Below are positions 48,358 to 54,591 of a stretch of DNA of 54,591 nt, piece after piece. The stretch's first letter is position 1. The number at the start of each line of letters is the position of its first letter. A program made the translations under genes and the position numbers. Source of the DNA: Bacteroidaceae bacterium (GTDB lineage Bacteria; Bacteroidota; Bacteroidia; Bacteroidales; Bacteroidaceae); contig JAFUVE010000029.1 of NCBI GenBank assembly GCA_017483765.1, positions 1 through 54,591 of the forward strand, in the 5' to 3' direction. The notes beneath the pieces are model-generated. The model was given only the letters and a program-made list of their open reading frames with translations, ran no database searches and was not told the origin of the DNA.

Positions 48358-49840
48358 GGCGACGGCGGAATTTGGATTTTAGTTTTTCTATGAACTGGGT
48401 CTCTTTGGAAAGTATGCGGACGGACAAACCGAGGGAAAGCAGGCCCAACAGTCCTCCAAGGCACCATCTTACCCATCCGTGGCTATGGAAAGCCAGGACG
48501 ATGGCGCAGCAGAGCAAAAGACCATGGGCCACGTATATCCACATGTGACTGAAGTCGAATCGGAAATGATAACGCCAGCGGTACAGGCCGTAAATCATCA
48601 GAAGGTCAAGCAGACCGCAGGCAGATATCGTGAAGCCCGTGGCGGCAAGCCCCCACTTGGCGTAAGCATAAGGCACAACGACGGCTATCAGCACATCATA
48701 CACCAACTCGGTCAGCATATACATCTTAGAGTCTCCACGGGCCAGGGCCAGGTAACTTACTGGAAGGCACAACGCGCGGAAATACATGAACAGCAACGCA
48801 CCAATCGACATGCTGACACAGTCCACGAAGGCCTGTGTAAACAAGATCGGGATGATTAACGGCATGCCGATGGCAAAGAAGATGAGAAACGGGGAAATCA
48901 GCAGCACACAGACTTCTATCTGATGGTTCACCGTGTCGTTCTGAAGACGGATGTCGCCTCCTGTCGACGACAGGCGTGGATAATAGTCGGCATCCATCGC
49001 GCTGAAGATAATCGAGGCATACACCACGGCCATCGTGTAGCCACGATTGTAAAGACCCACATCGCCCAGACCGTTCGACTGCTCGATGAAATAATTCACA
49101 AACAGCTCGCTTCCCTTGCCGAACAGGCCGGCCACTATCAGGCCGATGCCCAGGCGGAGCATCGGCACTCCTTCACGAAGATACTCACGGGAGAAAAGGC
49201 CCAGACGGTAAGGAAAGCCTTGGGCGGAATAATGAAGAGTGGTCAGCATCACAAGCAACTGACTCAGCAACAAAGCGTATGGGATGCTTTCGCTTCGCAT
49301 GAAATAGAAGCAGGGAGCAAAAACGGCCAGGATGATGAATGCCACCAGCACGGACACTTTCGTCAGACTCATCAGCCGTTTCGTCCCTTTCAGCACGGCC
49401 ATCTCTCCTCCGGTCACGGCCATCATCAGAATCACGGGCGACACAACAAGGAAATTCACCGTCTTGTAGCTCTCCGACAACAGCCAATGGCAGCAGATGC
49501 AGGCCACCATGCCCAGCAGACCCACCATCACGCTGTAGGTGCGCAAAGTGGTCACGTAATGGAGCGTGCGCGCATGATTTTCCTGCGCCGACACCTCCGA
49601 CACATGTTTCACGCCGCTGATGGAGATGCCGAAATTGGTCGACTCGCTCAGCAGGTTTGTCGCCTTGTTGTACATGTCGAGCATGCCCATGCCCGACGGG
49701 CCTAAAAACATGGCGGCTATCTTGTTGCGGATGATGTTCATCAGCATGTTCAGCACCTGAACCAGCCCGAATATGCCGGTGTATTTCAGGATGTGATTCA
49801 GGCCACCATCGCGCTTATTATGTTGTTTTTCTTTGCTCAT
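48350..49840 (-). CDS. Polysaccharide flippase (Wzx/MATE-like O-antigen translocase)
   Basis: A 496-residue membrane protein with about 14 helices. It would move a lipid-linked glycan across the inner membrane. Family pieces are GIFGLVQVLNMLMNIIRNKI, FLGPSGMGMLDMYNKATNLL, SGMKHV-like SGVKHVSEVSA and DVGLYNRGYTMAVVYASIIF. Several later segments (LLLCCAIVLAFHSHG, WCLGGLLGLLSLGLSV) are strongly hydrophobic. It overlaps the glycosyltransferase gene by 8 bp. No polymerase is next to it, so the rest of the glycan pathway lies elsewhere. Confidence 0.92.
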   Translation of the reverse strand: MSKEKQHNKRDGGLNHILKYTGIFGLVQVLNMLMNIIRNKIAAMFLGPSGMGMLDMYNKATNLLSESTNFGISISGVKHVSEVSAQENHARTLHYVTTLRTYSVMVGLLGMVACICCHWLLSESYKTVNFLVVSPVILMMAVTGGEMAVLKGTKRLMSLTKVSVLVAFIILAVFAPCFYFMRSESIPYALLLSQLLVMLTTLHYSAQGFPYRLGLFSREYLREGVPMLRLGIGLIVAGLFGKGSELFVNYFIEQSNGLGDVGLYNRGYTMAVVYASIIFSAMDADYYPRLSSTGGDIRLQNDTVNHQIEVCVLLISPFLIFFAIGMPLIIPILFTQAFVDCVSMSIGALLFMYFRALCLPVSYLALARGDSKMYMLTELVYDVLIAVVVPYAYAKWGLAATGFTISACGLLDLLMIYGLYRWRYHFRFDFSHMWIYVAHGLLLCCAIVLAFHSHGWVRWCLGGLLGLLSLGLSVRILSKETQFIEKLKSKFRRRHE

Positions 49841-50088
49841 GGATAATTTGTCACAATAATTTAACGTTTTTTTATCGTTTATATTGCAAAAATCCGTATC
49901 TTTGTGCTGAATTTAATCACAGGGCACCTGTCTCTGCTTAAATCACACCACCCGCCAGCAGTGCGGCACAACATCCCCATGCCCCACACCTGGCTCCAGG
50001 TGTCGGGTGCCCATTGCAATATCTAAACAAACTGAAAACTGACAACTGATAACTGATAACTGACAACTGATAACTGATAACTAAAAAT
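49841..50088. other. Divergent spacer before the dehydrogenase
   Basis: A TATCTTTG box (49897-49904) without a clear -33 would give a leader of about 180 nt. The leader holds an 18-bp palindrome ACACCTGG-CT-CCAGGTGT (49986-50003), a 7-bp distant pairing GGGCACC/GGTGCCC, and eight heptamers. Confidence 0.5.
50030..50085. repeat. AACTGAt heptamer array before the dehydrogenase start
   Basis: Eight uninterrupted 7-bp units (AACTGAA, AACTGAC, AACTGAT and so on, ending AACTAAA), 3 bases before the ATG. It is the clearest of several heptamer arrays in the window. Confidence 0.9.
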
Positions 50089-51048
50089 ATGAAAATCGTA
50101 ATTCTTGACGCATACACTTCCAATCCCGGCGACCTCTCATGGGATGGACTTTCTGAACTGGGCGAGCTCCACGTCTACGAACGGACAGAGACGCCCGAGC
50201 TTGTTGTGGAGCGATGCAAAGGCGCTGAAATCGTGCTCACCAACAAGACCATCCTAAGCGCAGAAATCCTCAACCAACTGCCCCGCCTGCTCTATATCGG
50301 GGTTTTGGCAACGGGCTACAACGTGGTGGATTTCGAAGCAGCAAGGAAACAACATATTGTCGTCACGAACATTCCGGCATACAGCACCGACAGCGTGGCG
50401 CAGGCGACATTCGCGCATATACTCAACATCACAAACCGGGTGGGTGACTATGCGGACGGAATCGCACATGGAAAATGGGAGCAGTCAAAAGACTTCTCCT
50501 ACCTCTCCTACCCTCTCCATGAGCTTACGGGACAGACCATCGGTATTGTCGGCCTCGGAAACATCGGAACGAAAGTGGCTAAGATTGCATTGGCTTTCGG
50601 TATGAAAGTCATCGCCTTCACATCGAAAGAGCAGGAAGCACTCCCCGAAGGCATTGTCAGGATGAACATGGACGACCTCTTCGAGACGGCCGACATCATC
50701 AGCCTGCACTGTCCGCTGACCGAATCCACACGCCATCTCGTCAACAAAGACCGGCTCGCCACGATGAAGCCGAACGCCATCATCATCAACACCGGACGCG
50801 GACCATTGGTGGACGATCAGGCACTGGCCGACGCGCTCAATGCCGGAACCATACAGGCTTACGGGGCTGACGTCATCACCCAGGAGCCGCCACGCGACGG
50901 CAACCCGCTTCTGTCTGCCCGCAACGCCTTCTTCACCCCGCACATCGCATGGGCGACCTTCGAAGCCCGCCAGCGCCTTATTGACATCGCCACGGCCAAC
51001 GTCAAGGCCTTCATCAGCGGTTCCCCGCAAAACGTAGTGGAGTTCTAA
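50089..51048 (+). CDS. D-2-hydroxyacid dehydrogenase (glycerate/hydroxypyruvate type)
   Basis: A 319-residue NAD-dependent enzyme that reduces a 2-keto acid to the D-2-hydroxy acid. The NAD-binding GIVGLGNIGTKVAKIALAFG, the substrate Arg in IINTGRGPLVDDQALADAL, the catalytic Glu region (VITQEPPRDGNPLL) and the His in FFTPHIAWATFEAR are all present. The length is normal. A heptamer array lies directly before the ATG. The stop codon falls exactly at the truncated end of the C39-peptidase remnant on the other strand. Confidence 0.94.
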   Translation: MKIVILDAYTSNPGDLSWDGLSELGELHVYERTETPELVVERCKGAEIVLTNKTILSAEILNQLPRLLYIGVLATGYNVVDFEAARKQHIVVTNIPAYSTDSVAQATFAHILNITNRVGDYADGIAHGKWEQSKDFSYLSYPLHELTGQTIGIVGLGNIGTKVAKIALAFGMKVIAFTSKEQEALPEGIVRMNMDDLFETADIISLHCPLTESTRHLVNKDRLATMKPNAIIINTGRGPLVDDQALADALNAGTIQAYGADVITQEPPRDGNPLLSARNAFFTPHIAWATFEARQRLIDIATANVKAFISGSPQNVVEF

Positions 51049-51195
51049 AGACACACCCTCACGGGTGATGAAGCAGTGCCTACGAAGCATCTCCATGGAA
51101 TAGGTGCAGCCATAATAGGCGGCAACCATCCGAAGGCAAGCCGGGCCACAATCGGTGGCGTTATGCTGGGGGAAATGGGGAAAACGCTTATACAT
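51046..51195 (-). pseudogene. Truncated C39-peptidase (bacteriocin-processing ABC exporter) remnant
   Basis: About 50 residues at the 5' end of a C39-peptidase ABC exporter. The start reads YKRFPHFPQHNATDCGPACL, with the Gln and catalytic Cys of the peptidase, followed by RMVAAYYGCTYSMEMLRRHC and ITREGVSL. The family continues here for some 650 more residues (catalytic His/Asp, membrane domain, ATPase), but the frame then runs into the antisense of the dehydrogenase gene. Intact exporters cleave double-glycine leaders and export the peptide. The nearby leader peptide suggests this was its partner. Confidence 0.85.
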
Positions 51196-51218
51196 CACTC
51201 AATAAGACACTTACGTTC

Positions 51219-54101
51219 TTAGTTCACTTTCTTTTTCGGCTTCCTGTCAAGGCGGTACAGCAGGTGAACCGTCACATAGGAAGGCATTGTGTTGAAGCGG
51301 GTCTCTTTCATACCCTGGGCGTTGACAACACGGCGGATGCTCGGAAGCTGCTGCAGAATGTCGTAGCCAACCAACTTCACAACCCACTGGTTACGGCTGC
51401 CCACCCCGCGGGACAGAGAGATGTTCCAAACCCAGTCGGTCGTGTTCATCGAACTTTCGGAGAAACCACGGCGGCAGTAGGCCATCATGTCTGTCTCCAG
51501 GTCTATCGACCAGAATAGACGGCAGGACATGGACAGGCCGTAATTCAACTCCGTATAGCTGAAAGGGGAGAACACATCATCGCAACTGCGCATCCAGTAT
51601 TTGTTGTACGAGAGTTTCCCACCCAGGGTCAGCCGGTCCATCCGCCATCGCAAAGAAAGCTCGTCATGTATTTTATAACGGTTGGCGGCGGTGCGCGAGG
51701 CAACCGCATCCAAGGAGGAGCCTGCTGAGGAGTAGTCAACACTGTGGACAAGACCTGAGCTGAACTCATTGCTCAGCGTTATCCTGTCATTTCTGTCAAC
51801 TGACTGGGAGTAAGTCAGCATGGCCACTGCATCCCAGTTGCCGTCAACATTCACGGGTCTGTAGGTCGTCACACCGGAAAGACGGTTGTAGCTGCGGCTG
51901 ACGGCCACCAGGTTGTCTGAAACAGTAGCTGCCAAAAGGATATTGTACATTCTCAAGTGCTTCTGGTAAGTGCGCTGAAAACTTGCCTTATAGTCGTAAT
52001 GCCTCGTTTTTCTCAAATCTGGGTTGCCAAGGTTCACAACAAGGGGGGAGCTGTCATCACGGACATCAAGTATATGCGACATCTCCGGAAGGTTTTCCCT
52101 CATGATAAAGCTCAGGCCCCAGTTCAAGCCCTTGCCATACTGCCCTATGCTTATCACAGGATTGAATGTGGCTCCGGAATTATTCAATGATTGGCGGCGC
52201 GAGTCTCGCTCATCTGTGAGAGTTCTCTTGCGGAAACTCACTTCCAAGTCGGCCTGGACATTGAACTTGCCGGCAAGGAGGAATGAGGATTTCACCGTAT
52301 GGACATGGCTCTGACGTCTGGTATGGTAGCTGTTCCTGTGGTCGGCCAGCCACAAGCCGGAACCGGTCAGGGAGGGTAGCGGATTGGAAATGGAGAACAC
52401 CGTGTCGGAACGCTCCAGCCTGCGACTGCCTGAGTCATACGAATGCTCATACGTGTAACTGAGACTCCATTGGGCTGGAAGGAAGAAACCGGGGATGTCG
52501 ATGTTGTAGGAAAAGGGCTCCACGAATGCGGTGAGCCTGTGATTTCTGGCTGGAAGAGACGACCGTCTTCCCTCACTGGTGCCTTTGTCGCCCGTGCCAG
52601 AATAAACAATCAGGTCGGTGCTCCTCATCACGCTCTTCTGACCCCCGCCCTGAAAATAGAGACTCACTGGAAGCTTTTTCGTACCGGGGATTGGATTCAC
52701 AAAATCGAGCTTCATGCGCAGGCCTCCGCGCCAGTCGCGGATGCGGGTACGGTTTACGGACTGGTGACCGTAGGACAAGCAGCCATCAAAAGCAGCAAGA
52801 CCGGAGGGAAGGTAATAAACGTCGGGCGTGTCTCCCTTCAGCACAATGCCGTCACTTGATGACTTATTGTGGCTGTAGCGCAACTCAGGGGAGACGCTCA
52901 GGTGGACAAAACCAAGGCTCCGCGACCACTCGCCTGTCCACTTCAGCTCATGGGAGTCCGTGTTGCTGCGGCCCATGTTCTTTGTGTACGTGTTGCCTTC
53001 TGCGTAATATTCCTCACCGAGACTCCGGGAATTGCCCTCCACATGCTGGACCTGGGCCTGGAATGTGGACTTGAGTTTCGTCTTGCTCTCCTTCCACTCG
53101 CGGGAGTAGTCCATACCGCCTGTCAGCGTGCGCTTCTCGCCCTCGCCCGGATCAACACGCCTCCACTCACCCTTGCCGCCGGGGTTCTGGGAGTCGTTCA
53201 TGTTGTTCGCGTTCACATAGGTACCGATACTGCTCACGGGAGTGAAACGCATCGCGAACATCCGAAGTAGCCAGGCAGGACGTGAACCACCACCGCCCAT
53301 CCAGCCACCGCCCGCCTCGTAGTTCGTTATCCTGCTCGCGGAATATTCGCGCTTTAGGTGAACATCCATCACCAGAGGGTCGTCCTGCCTGCTCCGACGG
53401 GAATAGTCATGCTCCAGATAGGCCGTTTCCGGCTCCTTCTTATACACCTTTATCTTATCAACCGTGTAAGCTGGAAGGTTGTTCAAAGCCACCTTCGGAT
53501 TGCCCTTGAAAAAGTCGCGTCCGTTGATTAGGAGACTGCGGACGAACTCTCCGTTCACCGTGATGCGCCCCTGATCGTCAAGTTTGGCACCGGGAAGCTC
53601 ACGGATCAGGTTGTCGAGCATCGACCCCTCCGACAGGCGGAATGAAGAGGCGTTGTACTCTATCGTGTCACCCTTCATCACCATCAGGATTTTGGACGCC
53701 TTGACCGTCACCTCGTCCAGACGGTAGGAGGACTGGGGGAATAGTTCGATGTCACCAAGGCTGTATGTGTCAATCCGCTTGCCGTAACGCCTCAACGGAA
53801 CGTCACGCTCCAGCTCGATGTCCTTGTAGCCGGAAAGCGACACATGGAACTTGTAACGGGTGTGCCTCGCCACATTACAGTTGTACAGGATTGTTTCCTC
53901 GCTGCCACGCTTATTGCTCCCATACACCATGGTCTCAACCAGAACCCGGCCGGAGGGACCAGACACCCTTATCGTGGCACCCGGCAGCTGCTCGCCGGTA
54001 AAGCCGTCAACCACATGGCCGTAAATGTATAGCGAGTCCGTCTGGGAATGGACGGAGACAGCAGACAACAGGAAAAATAAAGCAAACAGATACTTTCTCA
54101 T
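51219..54101 (-). CDS. Large outer-membrane beta-barrel with carboxypeptidase-like and plug-like domains
   Basis: About 960 residues with a signal peptide (LFALFFLLSAVSVHSQ). The ATG at 54101 is preferred over an upstream GTG. Residues about 20-110 form a carboxypeptidase-regulatory-like domain (GHVVDGFTGEQLPGATIRVS). A plug-like part (DTIEYNASSFRLSEGSMLDN, FVRSLLINGRDFFKGNPKVA) follows. Then comes a long TonB-receptor-like barrel of the OMP_b-brl type ending YVTVHLLYRLDRK. It lies 23-36 bp after the leader-peptide gene and before the C39 stump. A role in passing the peptide through the outer membrane, or receiving it, is inferred from position only. Confidence 0.87.
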   Translation of the reverse strand: MRKYLFALFFLLSAVSVHSQTDSLYIYGHVVDGFTGEQLPGATIRVSGPSGRVLVETMVYGSNKRGSEETILYNCNVARHTRYKFHVSLSGYKDIELERDVPLRRYGKRIDTYSLGDIELFPQSSYRLDEVTVKASKILMVMKGDTIEYNASSFRLSEGSMLDNLIRELPGAKLDDQGRITVNGEFVRSLLINGRDFFKGNPKVALNNLPAYTVDKIKVYKKEPETAYLEHDYSRRSRQDDPLVMDVHLKREYSASRITNYEAGGGWMGGGGSRPAWLLRMFAMRFTPVSSIGTYVNANNMNDSQNPGGKGEWRRVDPGEGEKRTLTGGMDYSREWKESKTKLKSTFQAQVQHVEGNSRSLGEEYYAEGNTYTKNMGRSNTDSHELKWTGEWSRSLGFVHLSVSPELRYSHNKSSSDGIVLKGDTPDVYYLPSGLAAFDGCLSYGHQSVNRTRIRDWRGGLRMKLDFVNPIPGTKKLPVSLYFQGGGQKSVMRSTDLIVYSGTGDKGTSEGRRSSLPARNHRLTAFVEPFSYNIDIPGFFLPAQWSLSYTYEHSYDSGSRRLERSDTVFSISNPLPSLTGSGLWLADHRNSYHTRRQSHVHTVKSSFLLAGKFNVQADLEVSFRKRTLTDERDSRRQSLNNSGATFNPVISIGQYGKGLNWGLSFIMRENLPEMSHILDVRDDSSPLVVNLGNPDLRKTRHYDYKASFQRTYQKHLRMYNILLAATVSDNLVAVSRSYNRLSGVTTYRPVNVDGNWDAVAMLTYSQSVDRNDRITLSNEFSSGLVHSVDYSSAGSSLDAVASRTAANRYKIHDELSLRWRMDRLTLGGKLSYNKYWMRSCDDVFSPFSYTELNYGLSMSCRLFWSIDLETDMMAYCRRGFSESSMNTTDWVWNISLSRGVGSRNQWVVKLVGYDILQQLPSIRRVVNAQGMKETRFNTMPSYVTVHLLYRLDRKPKKKVN

Positions 54102-54136
54102 GACTGTTACCACCTTGTAGGTAATAAAAATGGCAC

Positions 54137-54400
54137 TTACAGTTGTATCCAGTGGGCATAGGACATGGTATATTCATGACATTTTGCACTGCCCGCTTCA
54201 GAACAATAATCCGCACATCCCTCGGTGCAGGAAGCGTCTGAATAGATACCATTCAACGAAACCACATATTCATCATACCTGCTTGTAGTAACATTGCAGG
54301 AACAAGCAAAAACCTCCACACCTCCTACTATTTTTTTCAACTCTTCGTCTGACAGTGGTGTCCCAGCTAAAGAACGCTCAAAAAGATTAAGTTTCTTCAT
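54137..54400 (-). CDS. Double-glycine leader peptide (bacteriocin/RiPP precursor candidate)
   Basis: An 87-residue precursor. The leader (residues 1-27) ends LSDEELKKIVGG, the double-glycine form cut by C39 peptidases. The core (28-87) has six cysteines at 33, 35, 58, 62, 66 and 74, with a dense CTEGCADYC cluster, and a hydrophobic/aromatic end (YAHWIQL). Such peptides are exported by C39 exporters and may be antimicrobial, a signal or modified (RiPP). A natural-product role is inferred; no modifying enzyme (radical SAM, LanM, YcaO) lies in the window. The ATG at 54400 is used, since the earlier TTG adds only two codons. Confidence 0.8.
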   Translation of the reverse strand: MKKLNLFERSLAGTPLSDEELKKIVGGVEVFACSCNVTTSRYDEYVVSLNGIYSDASCTEGCADYCSEAGSAKCHEYTMSYAHWIQL

Positions 54401-54591
54401 AATCAAAATTTTTAAATGTTAATAACTATATAAAACTAACTAATTTACATAGTTCTCTCCTTATAATATGGGATTCTCGTCCGCATATCATTTTTCTTCT
54501 ATATAACTAAATTATAACGCATTGCCAATCAGAGATTAGCGCATATAGCACTTTCGTTCTGTAGCCGCAGGATTTTAGCCTGTAACCGCTC
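54401..54591. other. Upstream region of the leader peptide, window end
   Basis: 191 bp of A+T-rich sequence. No consensus TTTG/TAnnTTTG pair is clear, and no gene is visible before the window ends. Further genes of the peptide locus could lie outside. Confidence 0.4.

Follow-up and report, generated by a model that had tools for sequence, protein, structure and literature searches.

A double-glycine peptide and outer-membrane barrel next to a truncated C39 exporter in a Bacteroidaceae draft genome

The stretch of DNA analysed here (the window) is the entire contig C84 (JAFUVE010000029.1, 54,591 bp) of a draft genome of a Bacteroidaceae bacterium (GCA_017483765.1, here G000; 3,134,341 bases in 105 contigs, 69.9% complete), and near its end lie genes for a double-glycine leader peptide, a large outer-membrane beta-barrel protein and the N-terminus of a C39-peptidase ATP-binding cassette (ABC) exporter. 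A preliminary description of this DNA had placed all three in one minus-strand run, and they are indeed found there: transcription would proceed from the peptide (54400-54137) through the barrel (54113-51219) to the C39 fragment (51198-51046), which is followed by the 3' end of a plus-strand dehydrogenase. C39 exporters cleave double-glycine leaders and export the product, and for the onward passage of such peptides through the Bacteroidales outer membrane no route is known to us. The features are as follows.

54137..54400, minus strand: double-glycine leader peptide, 87 amino acids (open reading frame, ORF; 27-residue leader at 54320-54400 plus 60-residue core)
51219..54113, minus strand: outer-membrane beta-barrel protein, 964 amino acids (GTG start; PF14905, E 4.1e-7)
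51046..51198, minus strand: stub of a C39-peptidase ABC exporter, 51 codons (PF03412, E 2.5e-11, profile positions 2-47 of 133)
51046..51056, no strand: junction, fitting both the exporter codons (G-V-S-L, reverse complement) and the 3' flank of the dehydrogenase in the sister genome G012 (TAAA..ACACACC)
50089..51048, plus strand: D-2-hydroxyacid dehydrogenase (PF02826/PF00389), flank only, outside the system

The exporter stub, whose PF03412 match was scored on the stretch 51043-51198 of the minus strand, keeps the cysteine motif DCGPAC and aligns at 64% identity with residues 2-48 of the complete exporter of a relative (G107), and it is without the remaining peptidase, the membrane domain and the ATPase. 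It had been described as the first 50 residues of an exporter, which holds for an ATG start, while the GTG start gives 51 codons. Peptidase-containing ABC transporters (PCATs) have a full-length C39 domain that includes the catalytic Cys and His, and behind it ABC membrane and ATPase domains; the stub has no such full-length domain, and its sequence passes into the dehydrogenase at codon 51, where the others would follow. The cut falls exactly at the dehydrogenase stop, as first noted, in that TTA (51046-51048), with which the exporter-like codons end, is TAA read on the opposite strand. The frame of the stub remains open for 186 codons more, antisense to the dehydrogenase (a 237-residue ORF, 50485-51198), and judged from sequence this extension is the antisense of a dehydrogenase 97% conserved in G012 and not exporter.

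Peptide and barrel had both been called intact, and this holds, the peptide having all six Cys in its 87 residues and the barrel gene no internal stop in its 964 codons. The peptide leader ends GTPLSDEELKKIVGG, and the acidic core (net charge -6) has its cysteines in the pattern CxC ... CxxxCxxxC ... C. Among known models, TIGR04149 (radical-SAM-modified, ribosomally synthesized and post-translationally modified peptides) scores 13.9 bits (E 0.037), below its curated cut-off of 25 and thus outside that family, and TIGR01847 is likewise sub-threshold (E 0.04). Seven homologues were found, three in G107, one in G316 and three in G399 (Bacteroides sp. isolate Mgla_MAG_37-bin_35, JAAVCG010000005.1, found apart from the search of 399 family genomes), and each lies upstream of a barrel gene at a gap of 11 to about 93 bp, or 226 bp in one G399 case; G399 has in addition a divergent 89-residue variant with five Cys. 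In an alignment of seven rows, the window's included, the leader positions G-T-P-L, E-L-K, I and G and six Cys are invariant; the family is defined here by a GTPL..EL..I.G leader and six Cys, and the window peptide has both, with E 9.5e-32 against a model that contains its own row. This model matches three of the 399 family genomes, the same three that have close barrels. Across the eight peptides the leaders measure 26-27 residues and the cores 56-65, net core charge ranges from -7 to +1, and the cysteines number six, except for seven in G316. Pairwise identity is 48-93% over the first 27 residues and 19-40% over the cores, and for the three G399 peptides 93% in the leaders and 19-29% in the cores. 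Co-variation of cores and barrels is unsupported (rank correlation of identities 0.28, p 0.15, over 28 non-independent pairs), and no Bacteroidetes-type promoter pattern was found upstream of the peptide.

Within the barrel gene an ATG at 54101 lies in frame, with a signal-peptide-like stretch after it, and the product of the gene belongs to PF14905 (29.8 bits, above the gathering cut-off of 27), as do relatives at E <= 0.001 in 26 of 35 aligned cases. TonB-dependent transporters are 22-strand barrels with a plug and a TonB contact; no plug family appears among the Pfam matches, and a PDB sequence search with the barrel profile gave no match. Among the 399 family genomes, three have close barrels (E <= 1e-150), namely G000 itself, G107 and G316, and in an order-wide search at E <= 1e-120 only the window's own genome among 393 has one. 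At E <= 1e-20, all 13 genomes of the genus (own included) have a match, and G000 alone has 14, to about ten barrels. Ten plasmid records contain barrel matches, the best covering 96% of the query at 22.8% identity, with a sigma factor and no exporter among its annotated neighbours in an incomplete gene table; among viral contigs one stretch fitted a pattern and no relative was found. In a tree of 76 barrels, the nine barrels linked to six-Cys peptides, that of the divergent variant included, all fall into one 13-member clade with support 1.0. The remaining members of the clade are two barrels of locus L005, one of L007, and one of G399 that has a protein with C39-like and VKOR matches behind it. 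At L005 (10904-17191) and at L068 (12541-14247), tetratricopeptide-repeat proteins of about 560 residues adjoin barrels (one per locus was scanned) and are possibly regulatory partners.

Complete cassettes are present in three relatives. G107 has, one after the other, a glycosyltransferase-25/methyltransferase-like protein (662 residues), peptide, barrel, exporter (735), HlyD-like protein (240), and then two further peptide-barrel pairs; in G316 a similar protein of 669 residues is followed by peptide, barrel, exporter (736) and HlyD-like protein (243); and contig C5 of G399 carries four peptide-barrel pairs and, behind the last of them, an exporter ORF of 803 residues and a 228-residue protein at the adaptor position. 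The exporters of all three have C39, ABC membrane and ABC ATPase domains without internal stop, residues 6-728 of the G107 exporter can be aligned with peptidase-containing transporters of solved structure such as 4ry2, and the G107 and G316 adaptors match HlyD_3. Because the exporter stands directly behind the barrel in G107, G316 and G399, the missing exporter of the window belongs at the position of the stub. These relatives support the earlier suggestion of an amputated exporter of a peptide, barrel and C39 system, and the locus is read here, with a probability of about 0.7, as the surviving half of a secreted-peptide cassette that lost its exporter while peptide and barrel were spared.

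In its complete form, the cassette would make a six-cysteine double-glycine precursor, which the C39 exporter would cut after the GG and move over the inner membrane together with the short HlyD-like adaptor, and the dedicated barrel would serve the peptide at the outer membrane for exit, self-protection or uptake; the six Cys would form disulfides. Illegitimate recombination would then have joined exporter codon 51 to the 3' edge of the dehydrogenase, the rest of the exporter and any adaptor being gone from the locus, so that in the window the peptide could still be made and the local pump could not work. We infer the secretion route, the disulfides, the bacteriocin-like role and the retention of the barrel as useful by itself. 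On the sequence evidence, the best reading is a decaying or exporter-in-trans bacteriocin-like cassette, in which the barrel (as immunity protein, receptor or outer-membrane exit) appears to outlive the pump.

The truncation itself is most likely a real rearrangement, because the sister genome G012 has a different barrel after the same dehydrogenase and neither C39 nor such a peptide was found in it. The flank of the window is 98.1% identical to G012 over 7,296 bp, and 97.2% over the 979 bp that cover the dehydrogenase up to 51056; about 220-230 bp behind that dehydrogenase, G012 encodes a barrel, oriented like the window's but only 29% identical to it, which falls in a distant part of the barrel tree, and this 70%-complete genome yields no PF03412 match and no six-Cys peptide. 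The overlap at the junction is a microhomology of 7-11 nucleotides with a short indel, which makes an illegitimate join plausible. In a draft assembly, dehydrogenase and barrel could also have been joined without being true neighbours, and such a chimera is improbable, given the same-orientation barrel of the sister genome and the length of the overlap, which is 7-11 nucleotides against 97 to 141 bp of shared sequence at the ends of contigs. So short an overlap is in general too little for an assembler to make a join, and on these two grounds a chimera was rejected as the leading idea. Elsewhere in the genus, the dehydrogenase genes of G003 and G007 adjoin unrelated genes, and genus-wide inheritance of the system at this site was rejected on account of these neighbours and of the distant placement of the G012 barrel. 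PF03412 is present in 2 of the 13 genus genomes, own included, and the glycosyltransferase-like protein has no match in the 13 (a search without positive control); as these genomes are 56-89% complete, absence is weak evidence.

The preliminary description had also considered that the peptide might use an exporter elsewhere in the genome, and PF03412 is found at three places in G000: in the window, at C29:77719-77934, where another stub, some 77 residues long, immediately follows a barrel, and on contig C78. No intact C39 exporter was found in the PF03412 scan of this 69.9%-complete draft. The sequence is compatible with all three alternatives of the preliminary description, namely decay, an immune-only or cheater locus, and an exporter elsewhere. 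A system in which peptide and barrel duplicate or move as a unit and one exporter serves many, the stub being a scar of copying and the peptide leaving through another C39 pump, is possible although doubtful. It would agree with the three peptide-barrel pairs per exporter in the stretch of G107 that was read, with the four pairs that have one exporter in common on G399 C5, with the presence of a second exporter gene at C78, and with the intact leader and barrel of the window. The C78 exporter, however, is read in two frames, with the switch at about residue 451-454, its first residues agree with the window stub at 24 of 49 positions, compared with 30 to 32 (of 48 to 49) for the exporters of G107, G316 and G399 C5, and a search of G000 for proteins related to the HlyD-like adaptor of G107, run without a positive control, was empty.

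The recurrence of such stubs was surveyed behind 84 distinct barrel ORFs (some of them fragments of one gene), of which 78 had at least 150 bp of downstream sequence. A C39 match (E < 0.05) lies within 700 bp behind 11 of the 84, one of these being the weak match to the G399 C39-like/VKOR protein. The other ten are exporter-type genes: five are open end to end with three domains (G107, G316, G399 C5, G399 C45 and L008), one is split (C78), and four are truncated (the window, C29, L013 and L012). The L013 stub has about 57 codons with a stop inside, and that of L012 (6676-7559) retains the entire C39 domain plus a short extension, which gives way to a fragment with a match to the C-terminal SPASM region of radical-SAM maturases. 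That such stubs work as short proteins, for instance by binding leaders, is very improbable; all four keep an N-terminal part beside a barrel, with the retained frame open in three, but the retained lengths vary (about 51 codons in the window, 57 in L013, 77 in C29, and the full C39 domain in L012), L013 has its internal stop, and since the search was limited to stretches behind barrels, stubs that retain the 5' end were the kind that could be found.

A further explanation is that the barrel has value on its own, protecting against or taking up the peptide of other strains, while peptide and exporter are being lost, which would leave an orphan immunity or receptor locus. This too is a tentative alternative. 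The L005 and L007 barrels of the same clade have no recognised peptide or exporter in the available sequence (the L007 contig begins at about the barrel start, so that its upstream side is not covered), which fits a barrel useful by itself and is no proof of it; the L013 and C29 stubs likewise stand behind barrels without a recognised double-glycine peptide, and the barrel that G012 has at this site is not accompanied by C39. Against it, the window peptide is intact with all six Cys, and the wider barrel family is large (with the many matches in G000 alone) and mostly not beside C39, so that orphan barrels may do other things. Going further, the barrel might be a dedicated outer-membrane gate or immunity protein and the selected unit of cassettes that repeatedly shed their pump, an outer-membrane immunity system of Bacteroidales; this we consider unlikely. 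The amputation in itself is ordinary gene decay, and less noteworthy than the fact that fast-changing peptides are each paired with a barrel that can outlast the pump and is a testable candidate for immunity or outer-membrane passage. For genome mining, the locus calls for caution, as a peptide, a barrel and a 51-codon C39 stub could be mistaken for a complete locus from domain matches alone.

Similar systems have been described, and among the literature matches listed no description of a six-Cys double-glycine peptide with its own barrel was recognised in the text available; the cassette is apparently an undescribed, rare variant. Bacteroidetocins, as far as the accessible part of their description goes, have leaders of 15-16 residues, cores of about 42 residues with four Cys in the two characterised ones, and neighbouring genes for a transmembrane protein and usually a thiol oxidoreductase, and no immunity protein was found in that study (PMC6671954). 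A thiol-redox partner is a trait in common, given the G399 C5 protein with C39-like and VKOR matches. The present family differs from them in its 26-27-residue leader, 56-65-residue core, six (once seven) Cys and barrel, with an HlyD-like adaptor in two genomes, and the window peptide, with its 27-residue leader, 60-residue core and neighbouring barrel, falls outside the bacteroidetocins as far as its surroundings extend, the upstream side being cut by the contig end. Graspetide loci of Bacteroidetes, in the portion of PMC8939145 at hand, have C39 ABC transporters, HlyD-family proteins and PF14905 outer-membrane proteins near precursors or ATP-grasp loci, and TonB-receptor-related proteins, mostly in Bacteroidetes, are predicted there to mediate export. 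In contrast, no ATP-grasp or radical-SAM gene was identified at the six-Cys loci, of which only some genes were scanned, and these loci have instead the protein with glycosyltransferase-25-like and methyltransferase matches. In Myxococcus xanthus, the TonB-dependent barrel Oar is required for secretion of the protein PopC (PMC6434023); the excerpt of that work consulted mentions no C39 pump, and the outer-membrane role and transport direction of the window barrel are putative.

Several points weigh against reading the locus as the surviving half of a cassette. A cassette that had been truncated before could equally well have been inserted, because no relative was seen with an intact exporter between this barrel and the dehydrogenase: G012, G003 and G007 have none (three of the genus genomes with a dehydrogenase match were compared, the weaker partial matches of G006 and G010 being left out), and thus the comparison of related loci gave intact exporters behind the barrel in G107, G316 and G399 and none at the position next to the dehydrogenase. 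The peptide cores match no family of known function, and the core of the window is acidic (-6) compared with the two cationic bacteroidetocins in the accessible part of PMC6671954. The 228-residue protein at the adaptor position of G399 has no Pfam or NCBIfam match, HlyD models included. The draft state of the genome (105 contigs, 69.9% complete) also counts here, as does the end of the contig, which stops 191 bp upstream of the peptide gene inside multi-copy sequence:

54495..54591, no strand: multi-copy element, beginning only (identical over 97 bp to sequence near the end of contig C41 and over 96 bp near the end of C28)

This element has one fixed start point, with differing preceding sequence in the three contigs (window, C41 and C28), and as it starts about 95 bp upstream of the peptide start it accounts for the break in the assembly; it has no match among plasmids, and an Rfam scan of 49800-54591 at gathering scores gave no match.

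Other arrangements of peptides, barrels and C39 genes were also observed. The exporter on contig C45 of G399 is of another type, and L024 has a further open exporter more than 700 bp behind its barrel. At L107 (5064-11999) and L024 (5042-14397), a different type of double-glycine peptide, rich in Cys and Asn in L107, is followed by a barrel and a C39 exporter and adjoins a glycosyltransferase-2 protein with a weak C-terminal LanC-like match, L107 having a radical SAM protein as well. The C39-SPASM scar of L012 precedes another double-glycine-type peptide and barrel. On contig C29 of G000 (L069 and L070), several barrels have neighbouring secreted proteins (the one scanned matches PF09697, Porph_ging) and a thioredoxin-like protein, together with genes that by eye resemble BlaI/M56 regulators and sigma factors; one of these barrels carries the second stub. 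Finally, a short interspersed repeat lies at about 49960-50095 of the window, with copies 75-97% identical over 30-90 bp on many contigs of G000 and G012.
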